From Roseovarius salinarum (GTDB taxonomy: Bacteria > Pseudomonadota > Alphaproteobacteria > Rhodobacterales > Rhodobacteraceae), in the NCBI RefSeq assembly GCF_002834145.1, contig NZ_PHNT01000007.1, positions 62,001-126,000 of the forward strand: DNA of 64,000 nucleotides. The letters run 5' to 3'. Under the pieces are notes generated by a model, which saw only the letters and a list, made by a program, of their open reading frames with translations, did not search any database and was not told where the DNA came from. The translations under genes were made by a program, and so were the position numbers. Shown one piece after another: positions 6,424 through 19,158 of this stretch. Numbering within the stretch: the stretch's first letter is position 1; every line of letters begins with the position of its first letter.

Positions 6424-9069
6424 TCACTTGCCGATCAGCTTGAGCGCCTGCCCCACGACAAGCGGGGCAAGGCTGCCCGCCGCGATCAGCGCCCAGCTTT
6501 CCGGCCCCGGTGGAACCGTGTCCAGAACCTGCGCGAGCCCGGGCATATAGGCGGCGGCCAGCAGCAAGGCAACACCGATGGCCAGCGCGCCCCAGACCCA
6601 TGGGTTCAGCGTCACCTCGTTGCGGACCAGACCCGCCGCCGCGTCGCGCATGTTGAACACGTGCCAAAGCCGCGCGAAGCCGAAGGTCAGGAACGAAACC
6701 GTCACGGCAGCTTCGGCGCCCATGCCCAACGCGAAGGCCGCCGCGAAGGCCGCCATCACCGAGGTGGCAAGCAGCACCCCGTACCCCCCGATCGTTCCCC
6801 AGAGCCGACGGGTCAGCAGGGGTTCACCCGGGTCGCGCGGCGGGCGGCGCATGACGGTGTCGCCCTTCTCGCCCAGCCCCAGCGCCAGGGCGGGGAAAAC
6901 ATCCGAGACGATGTTGATGAACAGGATCTGCAGGGGCAGCAGTGGCAGCGGCGCATTCACAAGTGCCAGTACCGAGACCGCAAGGATCTCGGCGATGTTG
7001 CCCGACAGCATGTAGACGACGAACTTGCGGATGTTGCCGAAGATCCGGCGCCCGCCGGCGATCGCGTTGACGATGCTGGCGAAGGAATCGTCGCGCAGGA
7101 CCATGTCGGCGGCCTCGCGCGCGACCTGCGTGCCGCGCTGGCCCATGGCGACGCCGATATCCGCCTTCTTGAGCGCCGGCGCGTCGTTCACGCCGTCGCC
7201 GGTCATGGCGACGACGAGTCCGGCGCGCTGGTAGAACTCGATCAGGTCGAGCTTCTGCTCCGGCGTGAAGCGGGCGAAGATCGCAACCCCGCGCAGGTCG
7301 TCGCGCGCCTCGAGGTTCTCCCGGTCGAGGTCCGCGAGGTCACGGCCGTGCACCACCCGCGCCGTCGCGGCATCATCGACGAGCCCCACCTCGGCAGCGA
7401 TGGCCCGGGCGGTGCTCGGCGCGTCGCCGGTGACCATCACCGCGTGGATGCCGGCGCGCCGGCAGTTCAGCACCGCCTCCCGCACCCCGGCGCGGGGCGG
7501 GTCGACAAGGCCGACGAGGCCGACGAGGGTCAGCTCGCGATACGGCGCGGTCGGCGCCTCCGGGGCCATCCTGCGTGCCACGGCCAGGGTCCGCAGCCCC
7601 GCCTCGGCGAGGCGCTCGGTCGCCGCGGCCCAGGCCTGCCGTGCCGACGCATCAAGCGGCTGCGTGTCCCCGTCGGGCGTCATCACCCGCGTCGCGGCGT
7701 CGAGCACCGCCTCCGGCGCCCCCTTGACGGCGACGACGACACCCGCCTCGTCGCGGTGGACCGTCGCCATCATCTTGGTGTCGGGATCGAAGGCCTCACG
7801 GGCGATCTCCGGCCGGCCTTCCACAAGCGCCGCGCGTTCGATCCCCGCCGCGCGCGCGGCCGCCAGCAGCGCGATCTCGGTCGGGTCGCCCGCCGGGTCG
7901 GCATCCGGCGTTCCCAGACGCGCGTCGTTGCACAGCGCCACGGCCTCCAGCAACGCGGCAAGCGTGGGCGCGTCATCCGGCGTGACCGGACTGCCCTCGC
8001 GCTCGGCCCCGTGCACGCCCATATCGACCGGACCGTCGGCCAGCACCAGGCGGCCGACACGCATCCTGTTCTCGGTCAGCGTACCCGTCTTGTCGGTGCA
8101 GATCACGTTCGTGGCCCCGAGCGTTTCCACCGCCGAGAGCCGCTCGACCAGGGCATCGCGGCGGGCCAGCCGCCACATGCCCCGGGCGAGCGCGACGCTG
8201 GCGACGATCGGCAGCCCCTCCGGCACCGCGGCAACGACCAGCGCCACGCCGGTCTCGACCATCAGGAGCGCGTCGCGCCCTGCCGCGATGCCGACCAGCG
8301 ACACCATCGCCGCGACGGCGAGGATCGCCAGGAGCAGGCGCCGACCGAGCGCGTCGAGGCGTTTCTCGAGGGGCGTGTGCGCCGCCTCGGCCGTCTGGGC
8401 CAGCGCCGCGACCCGCCCGATCTCGGTATCCATGCCCGTCGCCGTGACAAGGCCCAGGCCGCTGCCGTTGCTGACCGCCGTCCCCTTGTGGACCATGTTG
8501 GTGCGCTCGGCGAGCGGCGGCGCACCCGCGAGCGAACCGGTCTGCTTCGTCACCGGAACCGACTCGCCGGTCAGGGCGGATTCGTCGATGGCCAGCGCAT
8601 CGGCTTCGAGCAGCCGCAGGTCGGCCGGGACGACCTCGCCCGCCGCGAGATGGACGATGTCACCGGGCACGAGCGCCGCCGCGTCCACCTCGCGTGTCTT
8701 GCCGCCGCGGCGAACCCGGGCGGTGGCGCGGTCCAGCGCGCGCAGCGCCTCCATCGAGCGGGTGGCGCGAAGCTCGGTCACGAAGCCGATGGCGACGTTG
8801 ATCACGATGGCCACGGCGATGGCGATGGCCTGCACCCCCTCGCCGATCGCGACCGAAAGCAACGCGGCGAGAAACAGCAGGCCGAACACCACGCTCTTGG
8901 CCTGATCGACGAGAATGGCGAAGGTGCGCCGCCGCCGGGCGCGGCGCAACCGGTTCGCGCCATGCGCCTTGAGGCGCCGGCGTGCCTGCGCCTGCGTCAG
9001 CCCTTGGTCGCGATCGCTGTCGAGCGCATCGAGCAGTGCAGCGGCGCTCTGGCTCCAGGTTTCCGGCAT
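6424..9069 (-). CDS. P-type cation-transporting ATPase (P2A, Ca2+-ATPase-like)
   Basis: An 881-residue ATP-driven cation pump of the inner membrane. In order: an N-terminal cation-ATPase domain, a first helix pair, the actuator TGES loop (about residue 170), the ion-binding helix PEGLP, the phosphorylation motif DKTGT (about residue 325), the hinge GDGVND (about residue 625) and six C-terminal helices ending near LVVGQALKLIGK. PEGLP and overall length fit P2A calcium/manganese or related Na/K-type pumps; the ion is not determinable here. The start at 9069 (MPETWSQ) has a GGCGGA ribosome site; the further upstream extension is unlike the family. Confidence 0.88.
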   Translation of the reverse strand: MPETWSQSAAALLDALDSDRDQGLTQAQARRRLKAHGANRLRRARRRRTFAILVDQAKSVVFGLLFLAALLSVAIGEGVQAIAIAVAIVINVAIGFVTELRATRSMEALRALDRATARVRRGGKTREVDAAALVPGDIVHLAAGEVVPADLRLLEADALAIDESALTGESVPVTKQTGSLAGAPPLAERTNMVHKGTAVSNGSGLGLVTATGMDTEIGRVAALAQTAEAAHTPLEKRLDALGRRLLLAILAVAAMVSLVGIAAGRDALLMVETGVALVVAAVPEGLPIVASVALARGMWRLARRDALVERLSAVETLGATNVICTDKTGTLTENRMRVGRLVLADGPVDMGVHGAEREGSPVTPDDAPTLAALLEAVALCNDARLGTPDADPAGDPTEIALLAAARAAGIERAALVEGRPEIAREAFDPDTKMMATVHRDEAGVVVAVKGAPEAVLDAATRVMTPDGDTQPLDASARQAWAAATERLAEAGLRTLAVARRMAPEAPTAPYRELTLVGLVGLVDPPRAGVREAVLNCRRAGIHAVMVTGDAPSTARAIAAEVGLVDDAATARVVHGRDLADLDRENLEARDDLRGVAIFARFTPEQKLDLIEFYQRAGLVVAMTGDGVNDAPALKKADIGVAMGQRGTQVAREAADMVLRDDSFASIVNAIAGGRRIFGNIRKFVVYMLSGNIAEILAVSVLALVNAPLPLLPLQILFINIVSDVFPALALGLGEKGDTVMRRPPRDPGEPLLTRRLWGTIGGYGVLLATSVMAAFAAAFALGMGAEAAVTVSFLTFGFARLWHVFNMRDAAAGLVRNEVTLNPWVWGALAIGVALLLAAAYMPGLAQVLDTVPPGPESWALIAAGSLAPLVVGQALKLIGK

Positions 9070-9496
9070 CGTCGATCCGCCTGTGAAGAAAAGGGGGCGG
9101 GCACACGGCAGCGGCGCCAGAAACGGGAGGTTGCGGGTCGGCGCCGGGGAGTGAAGACCACGATTCGTCCGCGCACTCAAGCACGGGCCGGCTCCTCGAC
9201 AACATCTTCATCGAGTTGCAGTGGCGGAGCCCGGAGTGCGCATGCATATGCCTGCACGCTCGGGCGACCGGATCAAAAGAGACGGCGGGCATCGCCAAGG
9301 GCACCGACGACGACATTCCGGTCCTCTTGAGCCGTCTCCCAGCGAACCAGCGCGTGATCGACAAGTCCGCGGCAGAATTCGCCACTGGAAAGCCGCCCAT
9401 TGAGGCGGTTCACCCGTGAGAAAGCCGTGTGAGGGGCTCTCCCGCTTCTTCGGGCTTCCCTCCGGAAAACCAGCAGCTCATGAGGCGCTTGAGAAA
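9070..9496. other. Intergenic region left of the integrated element
   Basis: 427 bp between the ATPase start and the left attachment repeat. Short frames exist on both strands (for example 9216-9419 plus) but they lack a recognisable domain. On the minus strand this is the DNA that originally followed the tRNA-Ser gene before integration. A small CCCG/CGGG hairpin near 9440 could have served as that gene's terminator. No gene is supported. Confidence 0.4.
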
Positions 9497-9556
9497 TGGC
9501 GGAGACGATGGGATTCGAACCCACGAGACCCTTTCGGGCCTACTCCCTTAGCAGGG
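9497..9556. repeat. Left attachment-site copy (displaced tRNA-Ser 3' portion)
   Basis: These 60 bp are identical to 19069-19128 and correspond, on the minus strand, to the tRNA-Ser anticodon-arm-to-CCA segment. The left copy lacks the tRNA 5' portion: after 9556 the sequence diverges from the tRNA. It is therefore the displaced chromosomal end, and the functional tRNA is rebuilt at the right end. Confidence 0.93.
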
Positions 9557-9572
9557 CGGTTTCTTTCCTAGA

Positions 9573-9694
9573 TATGGCGCAGTTAGGCGCAAACGCCTTT
9601 ACGCTATCCCCTTGATTCCCTATGTTTTGGCTCAGTTCGGCGCAGACGGGCACCCACTAGACCTAGAGCGCCATTTTGAACCACGGTTGAACCA
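9573..9694. promoter_or_regulatory. Short repeats between the left att site and the integrase start
   Basis: Two imperfect copies of a CAGTTmGGCG motif lie at 9580-9589 and 9633-9642, and a third is at 11570-11579 before the AlpA-like gene. Nearer the integrase are two TTGAACCA boxes (9676-9683, 9687-9694) with an 11-bp period; the last base of the second box is the A of the integrase ATG. The same box pair occurs at the right end (18994-19012). These look like arm-type integrase or AlpA-binding sites and may also control integrase expression. The motifs are visible; the function is inferred. Confidence 0.5.
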
Positions 9695-10812
9695 TGCCCG
9701 ATCTGAGCAACAAGACCGCCCGCCGCAAGCTGAAGCCGCGCAGTTCCGCCTATACGCAGAAGCTGGCCGAGGGCCGCGCCCTGGGCTACCGCAAGCGCAC
9801 CGCCGGCGCGCCGGGCCGTTGGCTCCTGCGCACTGCCGAGGATGAAGGCGGCTACGCCTTCGAGGTGCTCGGCGCGGCCGACGATCATGCCGAGGCCGAC
9901 GGCCGCGAGGTGCTGTCCTATACGCAGGCGCTGGCCGCCGCGCTGGGCAAGCAGACGGCAGACCCGACGAAGATCACTGTCGCGCAGGCGCTGGACGAAT
10001 GGGCGCGCGCCAAGGTGGCGACGGCTTCGACCGAGAAGCGCAAGGCCGACATCGAGAGCACGGCCCGCCGGATCGCCGCCGCCTTCAAGCGCAAGACGCT
10101 CAAGACGATCACGGCGCGCGACATTGCGCGGTGGATGGACGGCTACATCGTGGAGGGCAAAGACCCGCGCGCCCGCCGTGCGACCGCAAACCGCGACCTC
10201 GCCACGCTCAAGGCCGCGCTGACCCGCGCCGCGAACGCCTACGACTACACCGGGCCGCGCGCATGGGAGGCCGCCAAGAAGTTCGCCAAGGCCGAGAGCT
10301 TCGGCGCCCGCATGGTGATCCTGACGCTCGAGCAGGAGGCGCAGTTGATCGCCGCCGCCCGCTCTGACTTCGCGGACGTGCTGACTGCATTGCAGATGAC
10401 CGGCGCGCGCTATGGCGAGATACGCCACGCCACGGCGGGCGATCTTCAAGGCAACCGCCTCACGCTGGAAGGCAAGACCGGGCGGCGCACGATCGCCCTG
10501 TCGCCTGACAAGGCCGCATGGTTCGCTGAGCGCGCCAAGGGCCGCCCGAAGGGCGCGCCGCTGCTGATCCGCCACGACGGCACCGGCTGGCCGGACGGCG
10601 GGCAGATGAAGCCCATGCGCGCGGCCGTCGCCGCCGCAGGACTGCCGGAGACCGTGACGACCTACGCCCTGCGGCATGGCTTCATATCGCGGGCTCTGTC
10701 GGCCGGCGTGCCGATCGCCGCGGTGGCGCAGCACGTCGGCAGTTCGCCCGAGATGATCGCGGCGAGCTACGCGAAGTTCACGCCGACGCAGATGCAGGAG
10801 TGGTTCGCGTGA
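9694..10812 (+). CDS. int: Tyrosine recombinase (phage integrase)
   Basis: A 372-residue site-specific recombinase that should integrate and excise the element at tRNA-Ser. An N-terminal arm-binding-like region (residues 1-95) precedes a SAM-like core-binding domain (about 95-200). The catalytic residues are R239 in TGARYGEI, Y324-R327-H328 in YALRHGF (Tyr replaces the usual first His), H347 and the nucleophile Y359. The gene starts 137 bp inside the left att copy, in the usual position for an integrase. Its ATG overlaps a TTGAACCA box, suggesting autoregulation. The next gene overlaps its stop. Confidence 0.93.
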   Translation: MPDLSNKTARRKLKPRSSAYTQKLAEGRALGYRKRTAGAPGRWLLRTAEDEGGYAFEVLGAADDHAEADGREVLSYTQALAAALGKQTADPTKITVAQALDEWARAKVATASTEKRKADIESTARRIAAAFKRKTLKTITARDIARWMDGYIVEGKDPRARRATANRDLATLKAALTRAANAYDYTGPRAWEAAKKFAKAESFGARMVILTLEQEAQLIAAARSDFADVLTALQMTGARYGEIRHATAGDLQGNRLTLEGKTGRRTIALSPDKAAWFAERAKGRPKGAPLLIRHDGTGWPDGGQMKPMRAAVAAAGLPETVTTYALRHGFISRALSAGVPIAAVAQHVGSSPEMIAASYAKFTPTQMQEWFA

Positions 10813-11543
10813 CGGAGGGGCGCAAAACGCACTACCAGATTTTTTGCATGATCTGCGATGAATGCGGCATCGAGTATCGTGGGCCGGATACGCCCGAACG
10901 GCTTCCTCGAAACTACAACCTGACGCGGGAGGCCTACCAACGTCTCAATGGGTGGATTGCCAAGATGCACGGGGCCGCCTCCGTTTGGGAGCGGCCGGGA
11001 GAGATCGAAACTCAGCTAGAGGACGCCCGAAAGAAACTGGCCGCCGCGATCGAGGCCATCGAAAAGCTAGATAACTACGCGAGGGTTCAGGCGCGACGCG
11101 AGGCTCTAAAGGAGCGGGATGCAGAGTTTGAGAGGCAACTTGCGGCAATCGCCGAGAGTGGAGCGCCGCGAGACGAACAGTTAGAGCGCATGAACAGGGT
11201 AATAGAGGCGTTCCAGACCGTCCCGCGAGAGGAGTGGATTGACTACGCCGCAATCGCCCAGATCAAGGCGCTGAGTGCGGCGTTGACCCGCCCGATCGAG
11301 CAGGCAATTCCTATGGTGCAGGAAGGCCGAGGGCGCCCGCGCAATCTGCGCGCATATGCGGTGGCCGAACATGCCTACGTGATTTTCGAGGAACTGACCG
11401 GGCAGAAACCGACCTTCTGGAACGCCAAGGAGACAACACCCTTCGGCCGGATAGTGCAACAACTGTTCAACGTCTATGGCATCAAGAGCAACGTCCGGAA
11501 GCCCATCGAGGCGGCTATGCACAAATTCAGTTCCGAGACCTGA
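10809..11543 (+). CDS. Unknown protein with N-terminal CxxC and central coiled coil
   Basis: A 244-residue protein of unknown function. GTG 10809 overlaps the integrase stop (GTGA) and has an AGGAG site at 10796-10800, so it is preferred to GTG 10800. The N-terminus has CMICDECGIEYRG, a possible zinc knuckle. Residues about 55-130 are rich in Glu/Lys/Arg/Ala and look coiled-coil, and the C-terminal third (GRPRNLRAYAVAEHAYVIFEELTG, then GRIVQQLFNVYGIKS) looks globular. It is visibly less GC-rich than its neighbours, which suggests a separate origin. Coupling to the integrase suggests a role in recombination control or host interaction, but no family is recognised. Confidence 0.7.
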   Translation: MTEGRKTHYQIFCMICDECGIEYRGPDTPERLPRNYNLTREAYQRLNGWIAKMHGAASVWERPGEIETQLEDARKKLAAAIEAIEKLDNYARVQARREALKERDAEFERQLAAIAESGAPRDEQLERMNRVIEAFQTVPREEWIDYAAIAQIKALSAALTRPIEQAIPMVQEGRGRPRNLRAYAVAEHAYVIFEELTGQKPTFWNAKETTPFGRIVQQLFNVYGIKSNVRKPIEAAMHKFSSET

Positions 11544-11615
11544 TTTTAGGCATTTAGCCATGCTAGGGGCAGTTAGGCGAGATTGAACGCACCTTCACAA
11601 CGAAAGGGCGTTCAA

Positions 11616-11858
11616 ATGGACACGAACCACACGCAGACCGCCGCAGGGCCGATCCCGCGCCTGCAACTCAGCCTGGCCGACGCCGCCGAGGCGCTGAACA
11701 TCCCGCAATCGACGCTCGAGCTTGAATGCCGACGCGGGCGCGGGCCGAAGTTCTACATCGTCGGCCGCCGGAAATACACGACCGTCGAACTGATCCGCGA
11801 ATGGCAGGCGCAGAAGATCGCCGAAGCCGAGGCCGAGGCGCGCGAGGTGGCGGCATGA
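11616..11858 (+). CDS. AlpA-like small helix-turn-helix protein (excisionase/activator candidate)
   Basis: An 80-residue protein with a MerR/AlpA-type winged helix: LSLADAAEALNIPQSTLELECRRGRGPKFYIVGRRKYTTVELIREWQAQK. Such proteins act as excisionases or as activators of satellite genes (AlpA family). ATG 11616 is preferred over TTG 11583. A copy of the CAGTTAGGCG motif lies about 40 bp upstream. The stop overlaps the next ATG. Position between integrase and replication genes is the usual place for a satellite's master regulator. Confidence 0.75.
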   Translation: MDTNHTQTAAGPIPRLQLSLADAAEALNIPQSTLELECRRGRGPKFYIVGRRKYTTVELIREWQAQKIAEAEAEAREVAA

Positions 11859-12109
11859 GCTTCCTCGAGGAACTTTCATACGACCTGATCCGCCTGCAAG
11901 GGCTGATCTGCGCGCTCGATGTGGTCGCGGATGCCGCGTCCATCACCCCGGATGGCGTCGAAGCCCCGCCGCACGTCAAGCGCGCGCGCGAATCGGAGCC
12001 GGTGCTGATCGAGACGATCGAACAGCACGGCGAGGCGCTGATTCAGAAGGTGGGGCGCGCGGCGCTTGAGGAGAACAGGGCCGCACGCGGCCGGGAGGGC
12101 GCGCAATGA
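11855..12109 (+). CDS. Small hypothetical protein
   Basis: An 84-residue protein starting MSFLEELSYDLIRLQGLI at ATG 11855, which overlaps the stop of the AlpA-like gene; its own stop overlaps the next ATG at 12106. The first half looks helical and the C-terminus is rich in Arg and Ala. No domain is recognised. The coupling on both sides supports it as a real gene. Confidence 0.65.
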   Translation: MSFLEELSYDLIRLQGLICALDVVADAASITPDGVEAPPHVKRARESEPVLIETIEQHGEALIQKVGRAALEENRAARGREGAQ

Positions 12110-12432
12110 CCGGCCGTCGCATCCAATGGCATCGCGGCATGGGCAAGCTGCCGGAAGGCGCTGCCTACGTCGGCCGGCCGAGCCGCTACGGCAACCCGTT
12201 CAAGGTCGGCGCGCCGCACCCGGACGATGGCGCGCCTATGAGCCGCGCCGACGCGGTGGCGCTTTTTCGGCTCTGGCTCACCCAGCCCGAGCAAGCCGAG
12301 TTGCGCGACCGCGCCCGGCGCGAACTGGCGGGCCGTGACTTGGCTTGCGCCTGTCCGCTCGACGGCGGGCCTTGCCACGCCGACGCGCTGCTCGCGCTGG
12401 TGAACGGGGCTACCGAGACCGCCAACGAATGA
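12106..12432 (+). CDS. DUF4326 domain protein
   Basis: A 108-residue protein with the full DUF4326 pattern: AYVGRPSRYGNPFKVG near residue 20, DAVALFRLWLT in the middle and LACACPLDGGPCHADALLALV near the end, where the spaced Cys and His residues may bind metal. DUF4326 proteins are common cargo of phages and mobile elements; their biochemical function is not known to me. Start and stop are coupled to neighbours on the left, and a hairpin begins at its stop codon, so it probably ends the first transcriptional block. Confidence 0.85.
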   Translation: MTGRRIQWHRGMGKLPEGAAYVGRPSRYGNPFKVGAPHPDDGAPMSRADAVALFRLWLTQPEQAELRDRARRELAGRDLACACPLDGGPCHADALLALVNGATETANE

Positions 12433-12552
12433 AGCCCGCACCGAGGGACGCGGCACGGGCTTCGAGACCTTGGGGAGCTTGGCGGCTTCGTGAGGTAATA
12501 TAGCACCGCCGCGCCCCTCGGGCAACGAAAACCCGAGTGAGGCACGGAGCCT
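12431..12552 (+). promoter_or_regulatory. Hairpins and possible promoter before the replication genes
   Basis: An 8-bp perfect inverted repeat (GAAGCCCG at 12431-12438, CGGGCTTC at 12456-12463) begins at the DUF4326 stop. A second hairpin (CTCGGG 12517-12522, CCCGAG 12532-12537) lies just before the next gene. TAATAT at 12496-12501 is -10-like, with TTGGGG 20 bp upstream. Neither hairpin has a T tract. The region separates the control genes from the replication genes and probably holds a terminator or attenuator and a promoter. Confidence 0.4.
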
Positions 12553-12996
12553 ATGAGACACATCACACGAGCGCAGCGCCGGCAACTGCGGCGCAACGCC
12601 GATACCGTCGCGCCGCTGCTGGCGCGCACGACCCTGCACCGCGTGGCCGACGGGCGGCTCGAACTCACGACCGATCCGATCGCGCTGGCCGCGCTCGAAC
12701 GCGGCTTCCGCGCCATGCTGCGCGGCAACTGCCGGCCGATCGTGCAGGAACTCACGCCCGAGGAAGGCGCGCGGCTGCGCGATCCGGGCAGCCTGCCGCC
12801 GCCGCCTCTGCCGGGCTTGCGGCACTGGGGCGCCTTCGGGGTGGACGTGGCCGGCTGCGGCACCTTCTCGACAACCTGGACGGTAATTCAGGGCCTGCCG
12901 GAGACCGAGGTGCGCGCCGAGGCCGAGCGGATAGTGCTCGAGCATCTGGCGAAGGCCGCGAACGTCGCGGGCCTGCCGATGGAGGCCGCGAAATGA
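12553..12996 (+). CDS. Hypothetical satellite protein
   Basis: A 147-residue protein with an Arg-rich N-terminus (MRHITRAQRRQLRRNA), a middle part ending in a proline run (LPPPPLPGLRHWG), and a helical C-terminus. No family is recognised. Its stop overlaps the start of a 31-residue frame at 12993, which in turn overlaps the primase start, so the three are expected to be co-translated. Confidence 0.6.
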   Translation: MRHITRAQRRQLRRNADTVAPLLARTTLHRVADGRLELTTDPIALAALERGFRAMLRGNCRPIVQELTPEEGARLRDPGSLPPPPLPGLRHWGAFGVDVAGCGTFSTTWTVIQGLPETEVRAEAERIVLEHLAKAANVAGLPMEAAK

Positions 12997-13088
12997 GACA
13001 GCTTCAAATCAGCTTCGTGATGCGCGCGCACGGGCTGACCGAGGCGCAGGCGCAGGCAATCGCAAACCTGATCTGGGGGATGGCATGA
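12993..13088 (+). CDS. 31-residue coupled small ORF before the primase
   Basis: It begins at ATG 12993 (overlapping the previous stop) and ends at TGA 13086-13088 (overlapping the primase ATG 13085). The peptide starts MRQLQISFVMRAHGLTEAQA and reads like a short helical peptide rather than random translation. It may simply couple translation of the primase, or be a functional microprotein. It is too short for family assignment. Confidence 0.5.
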   Translation: MRQLQISFVMRAHGLTEAQAQAIANLIWGMA

Positions 13089-15562
13089 ACACGCAAGACA
13101 ATGCCAACCGCGACCTCGCGCTTTCGCTCGCTCGCGCCGGGCTGCCGGTGATCCCTTGCCTCGAGGCCGACGGTCTCGCTTACGACAAGGACGGCAACCC
13201 GAAAAAGGCCAAGGCGCCTTACACGCCGCGAGGCCTTCACAATGCCACCACGGACGCCGAACAGATTGGCGCGTGGTGGACGCAATGGCCGGGCGCTCTT
13301 CCCGGCATTCCGACCGGCGAGGCCAGCGGGCTTTCGGTGATCGACGGCGACATCGACCGCGACACGGGCGAGGCCAAGGGCGAGGAGGAGATCGGCGCCC
13401 TGGGCCTCGACCACCCCGACGCGGTGCCCGTGCGCACGCAATCCGGCGGCGTGCAACTGATCTACCGCCATGCCGAGGGCGCCCGCACATCCTCGAAACA
13501 GGCCGCGCCGCACATCGACACGCGTGGGGCCGGCGGATACATCGTCGCGCCCGGCGCGCGGATGCAGGACGGCGCGCGCTACCGCTACGAGGGCCGCAGT
13601 CTGGCACAGGCGCTCCGCGCCGGCGATCTTCCGCCCTATCCCGTCGAGGCCGTCGAGGCCGCGATCGCCAAGGCCAAGGCCAGCAAGGCCGGCGACGGGG
13701 GCGGCACGGGCGAGCCCATCCGCATCGACACGGGCGAGGATCGCACCGAGGCCACGGATGCCGAGACCATCGAGGTTGTCCGCAAGCTACTTGCCGAGGC
13801 GCCGAACGATCTTGGCCGCGAGGAATGGGTGAAGCTGGCCGTCTCGCTGCGCGCCGCATATGGCGAGACGCTGCGCGACGACTTCATCAACTTCAGCCTG
13901 GGCTACCTCGGCGCCGCGTCCTGCACGCCGGAGGCCGCGCGCCACGTCTGGACCACGGCGAGCGAGGCGAAGGCCGTCACCGGCATCGGATCCGCGCTCT
14001 ACCTGCTGAAACAGGCCGTCGGGCCGGATCGCTTCACGACGATCTGGCGCGCGACCTTCGGCCGGACTCGAGGCGGCAATGCCGGATTCGGAAGATCAGG
14101 AGGATTAGGAGGGGAACACGTCGAGCCGACGCCGCTGATCCGCGAGATGCCGGAGGCGGGGCCGTATCCCGCCGAGGCGCTCGGCGCCCTGCGAGAGCCG
14201 GCCGAGGCGATCGCCACCGCGACCGAGGCACCCGTTGCTATGTGCGCGGCGTCCGTCCTGGCATCGGCGGCGCTCGCGGCGCAGGGGCACCGGGACGCCG
14301 AGACGCTGAACGGCACCGCGCCGGCGAGCCTCTTCTTGTTGACGGTGGCCGAGAGCGGCGAGCGCAAATCGACCGCCGACCGCCTCGCGATGCGTGGCGT
14401 GCGGGACTTCGAGGCCGACCTGCGCACCGACTACGAGATCGAGCGCGACGCGTGGAAGGATGCGCAGGAAGTCCGGAAGGCGGAGCGCGCGAAGATCGTG
14501 GGCGACAAGAAGGCCGACGCCGCGAGCAAGCGCGCGGACCTGGCGGCGCTCGGGCCGGAACCGCCGGCACCGCTGAAGCCGCATATCGTCGCCTCGGCGC
14601 CGACGGTGGAGGGCATCACGAAGCACCTGCCCGAACTGCGGGGCAGCCTCGGCATCATGACCGAGGAAGGCGGCGCGCTGATCGGCGGGCATAGCATGAA
14701 GGCCGAGAACAGGCTGGCGACCTGCGCGAGCCTCTCGGCAATGTGGGATGGCGCGCCGCTCGACCGCTGGCGGGCCGGCGATGGCGTGGAGGTTTACACC
14801 GGGCGGCGCTTCTCGGCGCATATCCTCGTGCAGCCGGTGGCCGCCGAGGCGCTCCTGGCCGATCCGATGGCGAACGGGCAGGGCCTCGTGGCGCGCTTCT
14901 TGACCTGCCGGCCGACCTCGAGGATCGGCGGGCGCCTGCGCATGGAGCGGGACGCGACCGCCGAGGCCGAGATCGCGCGCTTCGCCGCCCGCATCCGGGC
15001 GCTTCTCTCGCGGCCGTTGCCGGTGGCCGACGGCACCCGGAACGAACTCGCGCCGCCGATCCTGCCTCTCTCGAGCGAGGCGCGCGCGGTGCTGACGGAC
15101 TTCGCCCGCGAGGTGGAGAGCGCGCAGGCGCCGGGCGGACCTTTCGAGGATGCGCGGGCCTTCGCCTCGAAAACGGCCGAGCACGCCGCCCGCATCGCGG
15201 CGGTGCTGACGATCTTCGCGGACCCGGACGCCGCCGAGGTGACGGGCGAGACGATGGCCGGCGCAACGGCGATCGCCACCTTCTACGCGAACGAAGCCGC
15301 CCGCCTTGCCGACGCGGCCGTGATCCCGCCCGAGGTGGCCGAGGCCGAGCGGATGCGCAAATGGCTCCTGACCTCGTGGGGCGAGCTTTTCATATCCGCC
15401 GGCATCGCCGCGCAATTCGGGCCGTTCAAGCTGACCGACAAGGCACGGAAGGCGCTGCGGCGGCTTCAGGACCACGGCTGGCTGATCGAGGCCGACGGCG
15501 CCGAGGTGAGAGGCAAGGCGCGCAAGGAGGCGTGGCGCATCGTGCGGGAGGCGGCGCAATGA
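13085..15562 (+). CDS. Bifunctional primase-polymerase/DUF3987 replication protein
   Basis: An 825-residue replication protein. Residues 1-180 are a prim-pol domain with the acidic motif VIDGDID (85-91) and HIDTRGAGGYIVAPGA (143-158). After a primase C-terminal-like region (ETIEVVRKLLAEAPNDLGREEW, about 220) and a Gly-rich linker (about 332-342), a DUF3987 domain follows with a Walker-A-like ESGERKST (about residue 420) and the conserved IMTEEGGALIGGH. DUF3987 proteins are thought to act as helicase-like replication factors in phages and satellites. Three degenerate 9-bp iterons lie inside the linker codons. Functionally this is the likely equivalent of P4 alpha protein, though by a different fold combination. 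Confidence 0.87.
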   Translation: MNTQDNANRDLALSLARAGLPVIPCLEADGLAYDKDGNPKKAKAPYTPRGLHNATTDAEQIGAWWTQWPGALPGIPTGEASGLSVIDGDIDRDTGEAKGEEEIGALGLDHPDAVPVRTQSGGVQLIYRHAEGARTSSKQAAPHIDTRGAGGYIVAPGARMQDGARYRYEGRSLAQALRAGDLPPYPVEAVEAAIAKAKASKAGDGGGTGEPIRIDTGEDRTEATDAETIEVVRKLLAEAPNDLGREEWVKLAVSLRAAYGETLRDDFINFSLGYLGAASCTPEAARHVWTTASEAKAVTGIGSALYLLKQAVGPDRFTTIWRATFGRTRGGNAGFGRSGGLGGEHVEPTPLIREMPEAGPYPAEALGALREPAEAIATATEAPVAMCAASVLASAALAAQGHRDAETLNGTAPASLFLLTVAESGERKSTADRLAMRGVRDFEADLRTDYEIERDAWKDAQEVRKAERAKIVGDKKADAASKRADLAALGPEPPAPLKPHIVASAPTVEGITKHLPELRGSLGIMTEEGGALIGGHSMKAENRLATCASLSAMWDGAPLDRWRAGDGVEVYTGRRFSAHILVQPVAAEALLADPMANGQGLVARFLTCRPTSRIGGRLRMERDATAEAEIARFAARIRALLSRPLPVADGTRNELAPPILPLSSEARAVLTDFAREVESAQAPGGPFEDARAFASKTAEHAARIAAVLTIFADPDAAEVTGETMAGATAIATFYANEAARLADAAVIPPEVAEAERMRKWLLTSWGELFISAGIAAQFGPFKLTDKARKALRRLQDHGWLIEADGAEVRGKARKEAWRIVREAAQ
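14084..14110. repeat. Three tandem 9-bp iterons inside the primase gene
   Basis: GGATTCGGA, AGATCAGGA and GGATTAGGA occur head to tail with no spacer. The last is identical to the unit of the larger array at 15621-15693, about 1.5 kb away. They encode part of a Gly-rich linker (GFGRSGGLGG), so a coding explanation is possible, but the shared nucleotide unit suggests a replication-protein binding site. Confidence 0.5.
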
Positions 15563-15948
15563 CCGCCTTTCGCTTCGACGCCGAGGCCGCGCTGAAACGT
15601 GCGCGCGAAGGGCGGCCCCTTCCTAATCTTCCTAATCGTCCTAACCGGGGCGACGCCGACGGGGCAGGATTAGGAGGATTAGGAGGATTAGGACCGGAGC
15701 GCGATCTACCGCACGCATCCGCCCCGGACCTGCGCGCCCGCCTCGACGCCGCCCGCGCCCGCGTCGCGCGCCTCGTGGACGCCGACGGCATCGCCCGCAC
15801 CGACGCCGCGATCGAGGCCGTCTGGGACGAGGCCGAGGCGCTGGCGGCCGTGCGAGAGGCCGAGGGCCCATCTGTCACAAGTTGTGACAGATCGTTTTCG
15901 CTGGCGGCCGTGCGAGAGGCCGAGGGCACCCCGCATCGCAAAGTCTGA
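15559..15948 (+). CDS. Hypothetical protein containing the iteron array
   Basis: A 129-residue protein whose ATG overlaps the primase stop. The N-terminal part carries the iteron-encoded low-complexity segment (NLPNRPNRGDADGAGLGGLGG); the middle is an Ala/Arg/Asp-rich helix. Near the C-terminus a nine-residue unit (LAAVREAEG) is duplicated around a short palindrome-encoded insert. No family is recognised. It may be more important as a carrier of DNA sites than as a protein. Confidence 0.55.
   Translation: MTAFRFDAEAALKRAREGRPLPNLPNRPNRGDADGAGLGGLGGLGPERDLPHASAPDLRARLDAARARVARLVDADGIARTDAAIEAVWDEAEALAAVREAEGPSVTSCDRSFSLAAVREAEGTPHRKV
15621..15693. repeat. 3+3 inverted iteron array, candidate replication origin
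   Basis: Three minus-orientation units (TCCTAATCT, TCCTAATCG, TCCTAACCG; 15621-15647) face three plus-orientation GGATTAGGA units (15667-15693) across a 19-bp GC-rich spacer. The two 27-bp arms match at 23 positions, so a long cruciform or hairpin is possible. Direct 9-bp iterons beside a replication-protein gene are the usual layout of plasmid and satellite origins. Its role as an origin is inferred. Confidence 0.6.
15841..15927. repeat. 27-bp direct repeat flanking a perfect palindrome
   Basis: The 27-bp sequence at 15841-15867 recurs exactly at 15901-15927. Between them (15871-15891) is a palindrome with 10-bp perfect arms, TCTGTCACAA and TTGTGACAGA, around one G. The palindrome is less GC-rich than its surroundings and looks like an operator or a strong hairpin. 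It lies in frame within the 129-residue gene, so it could be an insertion formed with a target duplication. Confidence 0.6.
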
Positions 15949-16028
15949 GAAGCGCCGCGCGGAAATCGGCGGCGTCCCCCGAATTCCTGCGCGTGCAGAA
16001 CTGAGCCAAAAACCGGAGACCGAGACCC

Positions 16029-16295
16029 ATGACCGACGACACACGAGACGACGCCACGCGGATCGCCACGGACGGCATCTGCCGCCTGTTCGCGGAGGCG
16101 CGGCGCGAGGGCATCGAGGACGCCGAGACGGCCGTTGCCGCGATCAACGCCGCGCTCGCGTGTTACGAGGCCACGCACGCCCGCACGGGCGCACGCTACG
16201 CCGCCGAGGCGCGGCAGGCGCTGGCGCGGGCCGAGACGTTGCGGCTGATGGACCTCGACGCCAGGCTGATCGGAGACGCGGCGGGGCGCGCGTGA
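16029..16295 (+). CDS. Small hypothetical satellite protein
   Basis: An 88-residue, mostly helical protein (MTDDTRDDATRIATDGICRL) with many Ala, Glu and Arg residues. Its stop overlaps a GTG start at 16292. There is an 80-bp gap before it without a clear terminator. No domain is recognised. Confidence 0.55.
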   Translation: MTDDTRDDATRIATDGICRLFAEARREGIEDAETAVAAINAALACYEATHARTGARYAAEARQALARAETLRLMDLDARLIGDAAGRA

Positions 16296-16417
16296 CTGTG
16301 GACGAGGACTCGGTGATGGGGTATATTGATATCGCAAGCCATGAGGGACTCTGGCCTGCACCCGACACGCCGCATGATGGACTCTGCTGCGCGACGGAAA
16401 AACCCTTCCTGACATAG
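16292..16417 (+). CDS. 41-residue coupled ORF upstream of the capsid gene
   Basis: GTG 16292 overlaps the previous stop. The peptide contains MGYIDIASHEGLWPAPDTPH and ends KPFLT. A 13-bp direct repeat with one mismatch (ATGAkGGACTCTG at 16341-16353 and 16374-16386) lies within it. It may be a leader peptide or a fortuitous frame. Confidence 0.35.
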   Translation: MTVDEDSVMGYIDIASHEGLWPAPDTPHDGLCCATEKPFLT

Positions 16418-16430
16418 CGGTTTCGACCGC
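16417..16430 (+). terminator. TTCG-tetraloop hairpin between early genes and capsid gene
   Basis: GCGGT-TTCG-ACCGC forms a perfect 5-bp stem with the very stable TTCG loop, immediately after the 41-residue ORF and 24 bp before the capsid ATG. There is no T tract, so it is more likely an attenuator or processing site than a full terminator. Confidence 0.4.
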
Positions 16431-16453
16431 GCCTTAACGCATGGAGTCCCGAC

Positions 16454-17599
16454 ATGGACCAGCTTAACGAAATCCAAAACCTTGTGGAGCAAGGCAACGA
16501 CGCATTTTCGGCCAAAGCCGCCGAACTATCCGACCGCCTCGACCAGATCGAGACGCAGATGGGCCGCCCTGGCGCGCCCGGCGTGAAGGCCGAGGAAAGC
16601 GACCCGCATTCCGACGCCTTCTCGGCATGGCTGCGCGATCCGCGCAACGACACGAAGCGCCACGCGCTCGCGGACGTGGAGGCGAAGCAAGCCTCGGGCA
16701 CGTCCGACGCGGCGGGCGGCTTCATCGTGCCGGAACTGATCGCCCGCCCGCTGCTGATGCGCGCCCGGGACGCGAACACGCTGCGCCCGATCGTGCGCCG
16801 GATCGAGGTGGCAAGCGGCGACGTGATCCTTCCGCTGAGCAACGCCGACGCGACGAGCGGCTGGGCCGGCGAGACGGACACGCGGACGGGCACGACCGAG
16901 CCGACGCTGACCGGGCCGAAGCCCACCTTCGGCACGCTCTATGCGCTGGTCGAGGCGACCGAGGAACTCGTGACCGACGCCGCCTTCAACGTGGCGGACT
17001 GGTTCACGATGGAAGCCGGCGCGGCGCTGGGCGAGGCCGAGGCGATCGCAATGGTCTCGGGCAACGGCACGAACAAGCCGACCGGCATCCTGCACACGGC
17101 GCCGGAGGCGGGCGCAGACGGCAGCCGCACGGCGGGCGCGTTCAAGTATCTGCCGAGCGGCACGGCCGACACGCTGGGCGCCGATCCCTCGGCGGTGCAG
17201 GATCTTCTCGTCAACCTCGTCTATGACCTGAAGGCGCAGTATCGGCAGGCCGGCCGCTGGTTGATGAACTCGGCAACGGCCGGCGAGGTGCGCAAGCTGA
17301 AGGATGCAGACGGCCGGATGCTCTGGTCGGATGGTCTCGGCGCGAGCGAGCCGGCGCGGCTGCTGGGCTTCCCGGTGACGCTGAGCGAGGCCATGCCTTC
17401 GATCGGCGCCGACGCGCACCCCATCGCCTTCGGTGACTTCAGCCGGGGCTATGTGCTCGCGGATCGCGGCGGGCTTCGCGTGACGGTGGACGACAACGTG
17501 ACCCAGCCGGGCCGCGTGCGCTGGTATATCCGCCGGCGGATCGGCGGCATCGGCTACGACACGCACGCGGTGCGCTTCGCCAAGTGCGCCACGTCGTGA
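16454..17599 (+). CDS. HK97-fold phage major capsid protein
   Basis: A 381-residue shell protein. Residues 1-80 form a charged helical delta/scaffold-like region, followed by the conserved domain entry GGFIVPE (88-94), IARPLLMRARDANTLRP, a stretch containing SGWAGETDTRTGTTEPT, the spine-helix region LGEAEAIAMVSGNGTNKPTGILH, and C-terminal LLGFPVTLSEAMPSIG and FGDFSRGYVLADRGGLRVTVDD typical of HK97 family capsids. Length matches a full-length protein including its scaffold part. No portal or protease gene is next to it, as would be normal in a phage; a terminase small subunit follows instead. It probably assembles with helper components. Confidence 0.93.
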   Translation: MDQLNEIQNLVEQGNDAFSAKAAELSDRLDQIETQMGRPGAPGVKAEESDPHSDAFSAWLRDPRNDTKRHALADVEAKQASGTSDAAGGFIVPELIARPLLMRARDANTLRPIVRRIEVASGDVILPLSNADATSGWAGETDTRTGTTEPTLTGPKPTFGTLYALVEATEELVTDAAFNVADWFTMEAGAALGEAEAIAMVSGNGTNKPTGILHTAPEAGADGSRTAGAFKYLPSGTADTLGADPSAVQDLLVNLVYDLKAQYRQAGRWLMNSATAGEVRKLKDADGRMLWSDGLGASEPARLLGFPVTLSEAMPSIGADAHPIAFGDFSRGYVLADRGGLRVTVDDNVTQPGRVRWYIRRRIGGIGYDTHAVRFAKCATS

Positions 17600-17822
17600 T
17601 GTGAGATGCGCGGGGCTTTTTGATTGGCTTTCAACCCCGCGACAGGCCGCGCCCCTTATTCAGCCAAGGGGCAGGCCGACCGCCACCGCGCCCGCGTCGT
17701 GCTGGTTCGCCAGTTGGGCGCGGTGGCACCTAACCGGGGCCTTCGGTTCTTCACGAAGGCCAGAACGGGAACCGGCGGCCACACTCTTTTTCTCGCAGCG
17801 TCACATCGGAGGCAATTTTGAC
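17600..17822 (+). promoter_or_regulatory. 223-bp leader before the terminase small subunit
   Basis: The frame of the next gene is open through here but the translation is Trp/Arg/Ser-rich and unlike a conserved protein. It holds an 8-bp perfect hairpin (GGCCTTCG 17738-17745, CGAAGGCC 17754-17761), a CCTAACCGGGGC 12-mer (17729-17740) that also occurs at the inner edge of the iteron array (15640-15651), and a TCGGAGG ribosome site just before 17823. Likely a leader or promoter. Confidence 0.4.
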
Positions 17823-18287
17823 ATGGCCAAACGGAAACCGGACCGCTTGAAGATTGTTGCGGGCACTGCGCGCCCTGACCGGATGAACCCGGACGCGCCT
17901 TCTGCAAATCTTGGCACCGCTGAGCCGCCCGAATGGCTGAGCGAACGCGCAACCGAAATTTTCTCGCAACTTTCCGTGACCCTCCACGGCATGGGCATTG
18001 CCTCACCTGACGATCAAGCGGCTTTGGCGATGCTGGCGAGCCGTTTGGAGGAAATCGAGGTTTGCACGGCGGTGATCGAGGATGCGGGCCGCACCTACAC
18101 CACGACAGCGACCTCGGGCGACAAGCTGGTAAGGGCACGACCCGAGGTAGCCATGCGCAATGAGGCCATGCGGCACGCGCAATCGCTCTTGGCTGAGTTT
18201 GGGCTTTCCCCCGCCAGTAGATCGAAAGTGAGTGCGAGCGAGTCAGCCGATGAAAACCCGTTCAAGGCGCTGGATTATTTCACATGA
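17823..18287 (+). CDS. terS: P27-family terminase small subunit
   Basis: A 154-residue DNA-recognition subunit of a packaging terminase. The start MAKRKPDRLKIVAGTARPDRMNPDAP and later PPEWLSERATEIFSQLSVTLHGMGIASPDDQAALAMLASRLEEIE are typical of P27-type small subunits, with a helical middle and a variable acidic tail (ASESADENPFKALDYF). ATG 17823 has a GGAGG site. No large terminase follows; the downstream genes are two tiny overlapping ones. In satellites a private small subunit redirects the helper's large terminase to satellite DNA, which is the likely role here. Confidence 0.88.
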   Translation: MAKRKPDRLKIVAGTARPDRMNPDAPSANLGTAEPPEWLSERATEIFSQLSVTLHGMGIASPDDQAALAMLASRLEEIEVCTAVIEDAGRTYTTTATSGDKLVRARPEVAMRNEAMRHAQSLLAEFGLSPASRSKVSASESADENPFKALDYFT

Positions 18288-18526
18288 CAGGCGATGATCT
18301 GCCCCATGCCGCGCGGCTGGCACATGGCCGGATGCTGGACGCCTTCGACGCCTTCGCACGGGGGCTTGTGGAGCGCGAGCGCGCCGCAATGCGGGATCAC
18401 CTGCTGGAAACCGGAATGACGCCTGAGCGGGCCGCACAAGGCGCTGAGGCGCATGTCGCGCGGATCGAGCAGGCCATGCAGATCGAGCGCGCCCGGCTTG
18501 AAGCCGAGGGAGCGCGGACGCAATGA
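18284..18526 (+). CDS. Small helical protein downstream of terS
   Basis: An 80-residue protein, ATG 18284 overlapping the terS stop. It is a nearly continuous charged helix (AFARGLVERERAAMRDHLLETGM, then AEAHVARIEQAMQIERARLEAEG). The size and character would suit a scaffold or size-determination factor, but that is speculation. Its stop overlaps the next start. Confidence 0.55.
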   Translation: MTGDDLPHAARLAHGRMLDAFDAFARGLVERERAAMRDHLLETGMTPERAAQGAEAHVARIEQAMQIERARLEAEGARTQ

Positions 18527-18705
18527 GCGATTGCCCGGATCGCCGCTTGTGGTGCGCGGTGCTGGGGGCGGCGCTGCACGACGCAGCGCGGGGCAAGGAA
18601 AGCGGCTGGATCGGCTCACGCGACTTTCACACGGTTTGCGCCTTGGTCGGAATCGACCCCGACGCGGTGGCCGAGCGTCTTGCACCGCCGAGCAAGGCAA
18701 CCTGA
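18523..18705 (+). CDS. Small phage-type hypothetical protein
   Basis: A 60-residue protein, ATG 18523 overlapping the previous stop. The pattern DRRLWCAVLGAALHDA, then GWIGSRDFHTVCALVGIDPDAVAERL, is one I associate with small proteins near packaging genes in alphaproteobacterial phages and prophages; the function is unknown. It is the last supported gene of the element. Confidence 0.6.
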   Translation: MSDCPDRRLWCAVLGAALHDAARGKESGWIGSRDFHTVCALVGIDPDAVAERLAPPSKAT

Positions 18706-18807
18706 GCCTTGTAACGGTTTCCCGCAAGGAGGGGCCCCGCCCGCCGGCTCCCCGGTGCCTTCCTAAGCTTTGCCATGCCCCCGGCGTCCGTCGCGGAGGA
18801 AAATCCG

Positions 18808-18925
18808 AGGTTCGCCGCCGGTAACGCCGGAACGCAGGACGCCGGGCATAAAGGTTACGTCGCGGCGGCCGGGATAACCTTTTCTGTCTGGACCTCGAGG
18901 CGCGGCCGAGACCGGCGGCGAACCT
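18808..18925. ncRNA. Nested inverted repeats, candidate structured RNA or packaging site
   Basis: Outer arms are a perfect 14-bp inverted repeat (AGGTTCGCCGCCGG 18808-18821; CCGGCGGCGAACCT 18912-18925). Inside them is a second perfect 8-bp pair (AAAGGTTA 18850-18857; TAACCTTT 18875-18882). No gene is supported from 18706 to 19068. Position directly after terS and two small genes fits a pac/cos-like recognition site or a 3'-end RNA; an ordinary terminator would not need the nesting. The structure is visible; the role is inferred. Confidence 0.45.
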
Positions 18926-18971
18926 TTGCTTTCGCGCTGCGCGAGGCGATTCCGGTGGCCGGGCTGAACCG

Positions 18972-19012
18972 TGGTTCAAGAGCACGCGGGCGGTTGAACC
19001 ATTTTTGAACCA
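18972..19012. repeat. Right-end TTGAACCA box cluster
   Basis: One inverted box (TGGTTCAA 18972-18979) and two direct boxes (18994-19001 and 19005-19012). The direct pair has the same 11-bp period as the pair near the left end (9676-9694). It ends 56 bp from the right att repeat. Likely recombinase or excisionase arm sites. Confidence 0.55.
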
Positions 19013-19068
19013 CACGCCAAAATTGACCGGTTAGGGCGCCGCCGGTTGCCACCTAAGTCATTGAAAAG

Positions 19069-19128
19069 TGGCGGAGACGATGGGATTCGAACCCACGAGA
19101 CCCTTTCGGGCCTACTCCCTTAGCAGGG
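19069..19128. repeat. Right attachment-site copy within intact tRNA-Ser
   Basis: These 60 bp are identical to 9497-9556. Here the copy is joined to the tRNA 5' portion (19129-19158), so the tRNA gene remains functional after integration. The core crossover must lie inside these 60 bp. Confidence 0.93.
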
Positions 19129-19158
19129 GAGCGCCTTCGACCGCTCGGCCACGTCTCC
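19069..19158 (-). tRNA. tRNA-Ser (anticodon GCU)
   Basis: A 90-nt class II tRNA. The 5' GGAGACG pairs with CGTCTCC before the discriminator G and an encoded CCA. The anticodon loop sits in CTCCCCTGCTAAGGGAG, giving GCU. A long variable arm (GGCCCGAAAGGGTC) and the T-loop GGTTCGAATCC are present. It is the integration site of the adjacent element. Confidence 0.95.

Follow-up and report, generated by a model that had tools for sequence, protein, structure and literature searches.

Gene content and boundaries of the element

The window analysed here is a 64-kb stretch of Roseovarius salinarum DNA (64,000 nucleotides of contig NZ_PHNT01000007.1), and its subject is a small integrated element that carries a capsid gene and a terminase small subunit (TerS) gene at a tRNA-Ser locus. 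The element corresponds to the 9,572 bp spacing between perfect 60-nt direct repeats at 9497 and 19069. A longer direct repeat (9489-9556 and 19061-19128) covers 68 nt with 97% identity. The attachment (att) sites and principal features are as follows.

9497-9556, no strand: attL, partial copy of the tRNA-Ser 3' end, a 60-nt perfect repeat of 19069-19128
9694-10812, + strand: tyrosine integrase, 372 aa (PF00589, 8.3e-7; phrog_1, 3.6e-38)
11583-11858, + strand: AlpA-like helix-turn-helix (HTH) regulator/excisionase, 91 aa (HTH_17, 9.8e-5; phrog_66, 1.9e-5)
13085-15562, + strand: replication protein, PrimPol + DUF3987 (helicase-like), 825 aa (PF09250, 4e-28; PF13148, 8.5e-87; phrog_2373 DNA helicase, 5.2e-49)
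16454-17599, + strand: HK97-fold major capsid protein, 381 aa (PF05065, 3.9e-62, domain from residue 88)
17717-17818, + strand: cos-like block, leave-one-out profile match upstream of TerS
17823-18287, + strand: P27-type TerS, 154 aa (PF05119, Terminase_4, 4.1e-18; phrog_83, 6.8e-27)
19069-19128, no strand: attR, inside the intact tRNA-Ser gene
19069-19158, - strand: tRNA-Ser(GCT), the integration target; the right repeat copy is its 3' end

All genes of the element are co-oriented on the + strand, and several junctions are overlaps of the ATGA type. Overlaps of 4-13 nt occur at eight adjacent gene pairs when a 31-codon open reading frame (ORF) is counted, and at six without it. The named families are tyrosine integrase, AlpA-like HTH, DUF4326, PrimPol-DUF3987, HK97 capsid and P27-type TerS. 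Family profiles together with repeat and tRNA calls confirmed the original prediction of five gene families, co-oriented and overlapping, within a perfect 60-bp tRNA-Ser repeat. The AlpA-like assignment made there is kept as a moderate call, because the matches to HTH_17 and to phrog_66 (excisionase/regulator) have moderate scores, that of HTH_17 (23.0 bits) being under the Pfam cut-off of 27. The start of TerS is most likely 17823 rather than the upstream ORF start at 17601, because its relatives begin at the corresponding ATG.

Profiles for portal, large terminase (TerL) and protease gave no match in the element (small connectors were not searched for specifically), and no tail genes were detected in it by library scans and profile searches. 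The remaining sense genes, at 247 aa or less, fall short of the length of a portal or large terminase. Among the ORFs picked in the element, the longer unlabelled frames (300 and 246 aa) are antisense. The description of a satellite-like island with capsid and TerS genes, lacking portal, TerL and tail genes, is borne out by these profile scans and by the homologous islands presented below.

Homologous islands with the same reduced gene set

Capsid matches at E<=1e-20 were found in 319 of 394 genomes of the family (393 genera), and the ten best from other genomes were taken with up to 20 kb of surrounding DNA. Portal, TerL, protease and capsid detectors were profiles seeded from one locus resembling a gene transfer agent (GTA) and one phage locus. 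With these profiles neither portal nor TerL was found at the six best matches (44-58% identity), one of which (L053) is truncated where its contig ends, 4.2 kb past the capsid gene. At the next four (39-41% identity; one phage-type, three GTA-type) both were present. In the portal control, 8/8 loci from genome contigs and 38/40 loci from a class-wide search of 385 genomes were positive; thus, the detectors find portals where they are expected. The two negative control loci are L175, which has an integrase and resembles another island, and L165, which is near a contig end and ambiguous.

A survey of 84 genomes of the genus yielded 20 regions, selected by visual inspection of the matches. Eight of them (L209, L211, L212, L213, L214, L217, L225 and L226) have a capsid gene and neither portal nor TerL, in eleven no capsid gene was detected within the stretch taken, and L218 had TerL, protease and a divergent capsid. 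Counting the window, at least 9 of the 84 genus genomes have such an island.

Related islands were found in several genera, and twelve portal-less capsid islands are bounded by att repeats: the window element, L048, L049, L051, L052, L209, L211, L212, L213, L214, L217 and L226. Their repeats are perfect, 44-60 nt long, and lie at tRNA-Ser, Thr, Cys, Asn, Leu, His or Arg; no perfect att repeats were found for L050, L053 and L225. Since in the eleven relatives a similar gene set is enclosed by perfect repeats of 44-57 nt at tRNA genes, the repeat in the window is not a chance occurrence. The islands are 8.8-10.5 kb long. A metagenomic contig from IMG/VR (L106), whose ends repeat over 141 nt, closes to a circle of 8,767 bp, and lengths of the twelve islands and this circle (n=13) average 9,377 bp (SD 530, range 8,767-10,547). 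The circle contains integrase, helicase-like ATPase, protease and capsid genes.

Integrase and capsid genes are present in 12/12 islands, TerS in 10/12, protease in two (L051, L052) and a tail tape-measure gene in two (L214, L217), while the profile detectors found portal in 0/12 and TerL in 0/12. Among the non-overlapping picked ORFs of at least 150 aa in the twelve islands, no unlabelled one exceeds 300 aa. The original prediction had named two refuting outcomes, relatives keeping portal, TerL and tail genes at this site (evidence of decay) and the absence of conserved homologous islands elsewhere. Neither refutes it: no portal or TerL was detected in any of the twelve islands, and eleven att-bounded relatives exist.

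Several other regions were noted in these surveys. L107 (protease, capsid, HNH, tail fibre) was not counted as an island and is probably a phage piece. L218 (G807 contig 22), att-bounded and 11.4 kb long, has TerL, protease and divergent capsid genes and may be a relative of the capsid-forming phage-inducible chromosomal islands (cf-PICIs). The genus regions L207, L208, L210 and L219-L224 have an integrase, mostly replication genes and no detected capsid gene, some of them near tRNA-Ser; they may be satellites built to another plan. Beyond the att site of the L048 island (16362-17808) there is a second, shorter TerS, and three att copies with a 5-kb neighbour element are found at L049 (1079-15612). 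These two regions are read as tandem or remnant elements at one tRNA.

A cos-like block ahead of the TerS gene

Upstream of TerS, most islands have in common a G-rich segment, a core resembling GGGACCGGCG and a T-rich segment. A single-word motif test for cos gave a weak, mostly non-significant result, partly owing to its anchoring at the starts of ORFs and not of genes. The alignment profile of the block was built on gene starts. In the leave-one-out assay, the profile of the 12 other islands detected a single site at E<0.01 in the 64-kb window, at 17717-17818 (E 3.4e-7), between capsid and TerS. Over all such assays the best match was placed correctly in 7/9 tests, with E from 6.9e-10 to 0.039.

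The profile of 13 islands was then compared with 66 loci, 14 of which are training or near-identical loci. Among the 52 others, 32 have TerS and 25 have TerS and TerL (24 distinct sequences). Matches at E<1e-3 were obtained in 7/52, and five of these seven are full-phage loci, namely L186, L189, Caulobacter phage Kronos and the prophages L261 and L262. The match lies between HNH and TerS in L186, L189 and Kronos (annotated genes), and directly after HNH in L261 and L262. The remaining two, the related loci L264 and L265, are counted as weak because the match falls inside the small gene preceding TerS and the loci have TerS without detected TerL. In Pantoea phage AH07 the ends of the record fall between the HNH and TerS genes, with TerS starting at base 51; if the record ends are taken as physical ends, this is the layout expected of cos. 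The assignment of 17717-17818 as a cos-like site is moderately supported. A weak match (E 0.0055) was also seen 3' of the capsid gene at L051 (11383-11484), an island without detected TerS, and a stretch at 17674-17730 of the window is common to L214.

Separate exchange of TerS and capsid modules

TerS of the window element is 81-82% identical to TerS of L211 and L212, whose capsids belong to other groups. DNA comparison of the islands gives the same patchwork. Because TerS relationships do not follow the capsid groups, the sequence comparison indicates that TerS, the DNA-choice module, and the head module are swapped separately between islands. Such separate exchange is expected if the two work separately.

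The history of the capsid was followed in a FastTree phylogeny of 115 capsid domains, from which L226 (231 aa domain match), L120 and L122 were dropped as too short. The window capsid falls within a clade of 13 capsids, every one from a portal-less locus (support 0.98), and its nearest relatives are L101, L049, L048 and L058 (55-57%). Other portal-less capsids form a second group (L111, L214, L175, L211, L213, L209) and a third (L212 and L225); those of L107 and L115 are placed among phages. As portal-less capsids fall in several groups of the tree, they were probably acquired by islands several times.

The AlphaFold2 model of the window capsid (mean confidence, pLDDT, 78.5, low in the first 50 residues) has an N-terminal helix followed by the HK97 domain. 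Against the PDB, the capsid sequence gave four matches at E<=0.001: RcGTA (6tb9), 6tba (an HK97-family capsid, which we take to be a GTA entry), the cf-PICI EcCI2 and Mycofy1. In structure comparison of the model, RcGTA and EcCI2 were at the top (Z 22.4 and 21.8) and HK97 entries reached at most 16.5. Both top capsids presumably belong to small particles, so that the modelled similarity fits a small shell and is not proof of it. HK97 has a 39.7 kb genome and a T=7 shell. Simple scaling from it puts ~11 kb in a T=3 shell and ~17 kb in a T=4 shell, and T=3 is thus predicted for the ~9.5-kb element.

Tape-measure genes in related islands

Two att-bounded relatives contain a tail tape-measure match within the att repeats, after TerS: L214 (6566-8341, - strand, 591 aa, best PHROG 5.5e-83) and L217 (11240-13024, + strand, 594 aa, best PHROG 2.9e-75). 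Further matches were found in L115, L111 and L053 by family and in L103, which also has a connector protein, by profile. None of these four is att-bounded in this analysis, and three of them are fragments of metagenomic contigs. Counted from one stop codon to the next, tape-measure ORFs span 621-1,058 aa in portal-bearing loci, 572-616 aa in L214, L217 and L115, and 788 aa in L111. The last value makes a shorter tail in the tape-measure islands only a hint. In the window element no tape measure was detected by family-library and profile scans of its proteins. A 723-aa protein of L101 is alike by eye, has no PHROG match and was not counted.

Candidate helpers

Two capsid matches are present in the genome of the element's own host, one in the element and one in a GTA-like locus. 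This locus (L009, 8255-13189, contig 11) is a cluster with TerL, portal, protease and capsid. Because the only portal there is the GTA-like one, and no TerL of the PF03354 family is present, the helper must be external, or else the element is stranded. The best hint of a helper comes from genome G822, where the sequence places island L211 together with two TerS-TerL-portal prophages (L261, L262) bearing the cos-like block. TerS identity between the island and these prophages is 32-36%.

Other genes of the element

The remaining genes and conserved stretches of the element are the following.

10800-11543, + strand: 247-aa protein after the integrase; no Pfam family above cut-off, homologue in L212
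11855-12109, + strand: small 84-aa protein; ATGA overlap, no Pfam, phrog_5463 at 0.0013 (a PHROG without assigned function)
12106-12432, + strand: DUF4326 protein, 108 aa (PF14216, 5.8e-19)
12553-12996, + strand: 147-aa protein; no Pfam or PHROG, profile matches in L225, L226 and weakly in L053
12978-13100, + strand: block conserved in DNA identity ahead of the replication gene, with the 31-codon ORF (12993-13088) inside
15559-15948, + strand: small 129-aa protein; ATGA overlap, no PHROG
16029-16295, + strand: small ORF, 88 aa, called from sequence only
18284-18526, + strand: conserved 80-aa protein; homologues in L209, L213, L216 and L270, predicted two-helix hairpin
18523-18705, + strand: conserved 60-aa protein; homologues in L209, L213, L215, L216, L225 and L226, no PHROG

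The homologue of the 247-aa protein in L212 (6812-7540) was found by profile, with 75% DNA identity over 261 nt. The block ahead of the replication gene (~100 nt) has 73-90% DNA identity in L209 and L211-L214, and recurs in many further genus relatives, among them regions without a detected capsid gene. The two small conserved genes downstream of TerS (18284-18705) recur across several islands; the AlphaFold2 model of the 80-aa protein is a helical hairpin (pLDDT 91).

Proposed mechanism and alternative explanations

From its gene content and relatives, the element is quite probably a cos-type phage satellite at tRNA-Ser, which would supply cos, TerS and a shell protein and borrow the other virion parts. 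Infection by, or induction of, an HK97/P27-type helper would switch on the element via the AlpA-like regulator; the integrase would excise it and PrimPol-DUF3987 would replicate it. At the satellite cos, the element's own TerS would direct the helper TerL onto satellite DNA. The satellite capsid protein, alone or mixed with the helper capsid protein, would form a shell sized for ~9.5 kb. Portal, large terminase, maturation protease, HNH nuclease, connectors, tail and lysis functions would come from the helper. Mobilisation and the small shell are what we infer from this scheme.

Several observations weigh against this proposal. No profile match at E<1e-3 was found in 21/25 of the TerS+TerL loci, and the joined ends of phage AH07, alike by eye, are unmatched at that threshold. 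The leave-one-out assay missed the block in 2/9 tests (L050, L101), and that of the window is not fully independent because L211 and L212 share TerS-region DNA with it. No helper prophage was found in the own genome, its sole portal lying in the GTA-like locus and PF03354 TerL being absent. An empty attachment site was not demonstrated, as the tRNA-Ser and the neighbouring host gene were matched at separate places in the genus relatives listed. No TerS is detectable in L051 and L052, there is no obvious primase in L214 and L217, and several TerS calls (L049, L217) are profile matches without a Pfam match.

The shell itself may be formed in another way, in a sub-model of the satellite proposal and not its opposite. 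The satellite protein could fill some positions, e.g. pentamers, of a shell in which the helper capsid protein predominates, acting as a size switch resembling Ccm of the Staphylococcus aureus pathogenicity island (SaPI) SaPIbov5. Experimental precedent exists, in which an HK97-fold satellite protein acts without satellite portal or protease and Ccm alone forms no shell (PMC8569155, PMC5052747); the window element, too, is without a detected protease. Against the switch, protease accompanies capsid in L051, L052, L105, L106 and L111, as for a self-sufficient shell protein, and the 381-aa window capsid matches the length of RcGTA and cf-PICI capsids (385-386 aa) and not that of Ccm (355 aa). 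Neither point is decisive, and such a switch is a real possibility that falls short of being probable.

Packaging of multimers in full-size helper heads, with the capsid gene as an accessory, is improbable. DNA of the satellite PICMI is packaged as concatemers without capsid remodelling (PMC10803314), but the presence of a capsid gene in 12/12 islands, whose lengths vary little, suggests that size is set by the shell protein. Equally doubtful is a role in interference only, in which capsid and TerS would serve to disrupt phage assembly and the element would be an anti-phage island that is itself little transferred. Ccm of SaPIbov5 does cut the helper titre by orders of magnitude (PMC5052747), but integrase, replication gene, TerS and the cos-like block point to packaging of the element itself, and related islands are present in several genera.

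The GTA-like locus of the same genome could lend portal, TerL, protease and tail, being the sole portal-bearing locus found there, and among solved structures the satellite capsid is closest to that of RcGTA. A GTA helper is nevertheless very doubtful: 11 GTA-type loci gave no match to the cos-like block at E<1e-3, in the capsid phylogeny the satellite clade and the GTA capsids are not sister groups, and GTA terminases are known to package DNA without sequence choice. Decay of a full prophage by loss of portal, TerL and tail was rejected as highly improbable, for while capsid and TerS are phage genes and remnants do exist (the shorter second TerS outside the L048 island, TerS without detected TerL in L264 and L265), 12 att-bounded islands of several genera share the reduced set, perfect repeats and similar length, TerS is exchanged between capsid types, no portal, TerL or tail remnants were detected in the window element, and separate decay events are unlikely to have ended in one and the same set.

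A wider form of the satellite proposal is offered tentatively. The islands may be a modular class of satellites that bring their own virion rulers (the shell protein, setting head size; cos and TerS, choosing the DNA; in L214, L217, L053, L103, L111 and L115 a tape measure, setting tail length), borrow the machinery and exchange the modules. The product would be a chimeric particle of its own dimensions, possibly with a T=3-size head for ~9.5 kb and its own tail length. The islands point to a recurrent division of labour with the helper: the determinants of particle size and the DNA selector come from the parasite. If true, head-size control, tail-length control and terminase specificity are separable and testable in a natural system.

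Comparison with known satellites

The cos-like block before TerS, the exchange of TerS and capsid between islands and the tape-measure relatives, all read from sequence comparison, are added here to the original prediction. That prediction also stated that PICIs carry no major capsid gene, which is contradicted by Ccm of SaPIbov5 (PMC8569155) and by Mycobacterium islands with integrase and capsid (PMC10654092). Satellite searches that accept only islands lacking a capsid gene or islands with a complete head module would overlook those of the present type.

Tycheposons and virion-encapsidated integrative mobile elements (VEIMEs) are proposed phage-packaged mobile elements of marine bacteria. 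Both are mentioned in PMC10803314. No description of portal-less islands with capsid and TerS in Alphaproteobacteria was found in the literature covered, nor of a satellite with a tape-measure gene; this is weak evidence, as the primary papers on tycheposons, VEIMEs, SatelliteFinder and cf-PICIs lie outside that coverage and could hold the same plan.

Phage-dependent induction and packaging in phage-like particles are features of PICIs (PMC6092414). PICIs are further marked by genes exclusive to them and by a conserved replication origin. The element shares with Gram-negative PICIs an integrase, specific att sites, an AlpA-type regulator (moderate scores) and a replication module (strong). Sid and Psu, the capsid-remodelling proteins of P4-like satellites with a P2-type helper, are not among the families matched by the scanned window proteins in the library, no dedicated search for them having been made. 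Like the pac-type SaPIs and PICIs with terS (PMC6092414, PMC5052747), it has integrase, regulator, replication gene (pri-rep in theirs) and its own TerS, which in those islands diverts the helper TerL. Theirs is a pac site, with head size changed by CpmA/B, whereas the window element has a cos-like block and a capsid protein.

The closest experimentally tested precedent is found in SaPIbov5 and other SaPIs of the cos type. Their Ccm, a homologue of capsid proteins, makes helper capsids smaller (PMC8569155) and sits in the pentamers of a mixed T=4 shell (PMC8569155, PMC5052747). Both plans combine cos (here the cos-like block) with one HK97-fold capsid homologue, the other virion parts coming from the helper (here presumably). 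In SaPIbov5 the cos region stands in place of operon I, of which only the 3' end of terS is left (PMC5052747), whereas a full-length TerS follows the cos-like block here. The host of SaPIbov5 is Gram-positive, and the shell position of Ccm was demonstrated there.

Closest in plan are the Mycobacterium 'candidate PICIs', phiRv1 and phiRv2 included, which are defined by integrase and capsid (PMC10654092) and are likewise small integrated elements with integrase and major capsid; the comparison is of plan and not of homology. phiRv1 is 9.3 kb and phiRv2 10.8 kb long (PMC10654092, PMC3986857). Some candidate PICIs have terminase or helicase genes, and their tyrosine integrases target tRNA genes. 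They belong to another phylum, and neither a cos site nor a tape measure is mentioned in the passages of those reports consulted. The cf-PICIs and the satellites MulchRoom and MiniFlayer (PMC10690885) have their own capsid gene, and EcCI2 (9gyi) is among the closest solved structures to the window capsid. These satellites carry a complete module for head and packaging, with capsid, portal, the two terminase subunits and further genes, whereas the element in the window carries capsid and TerS only.

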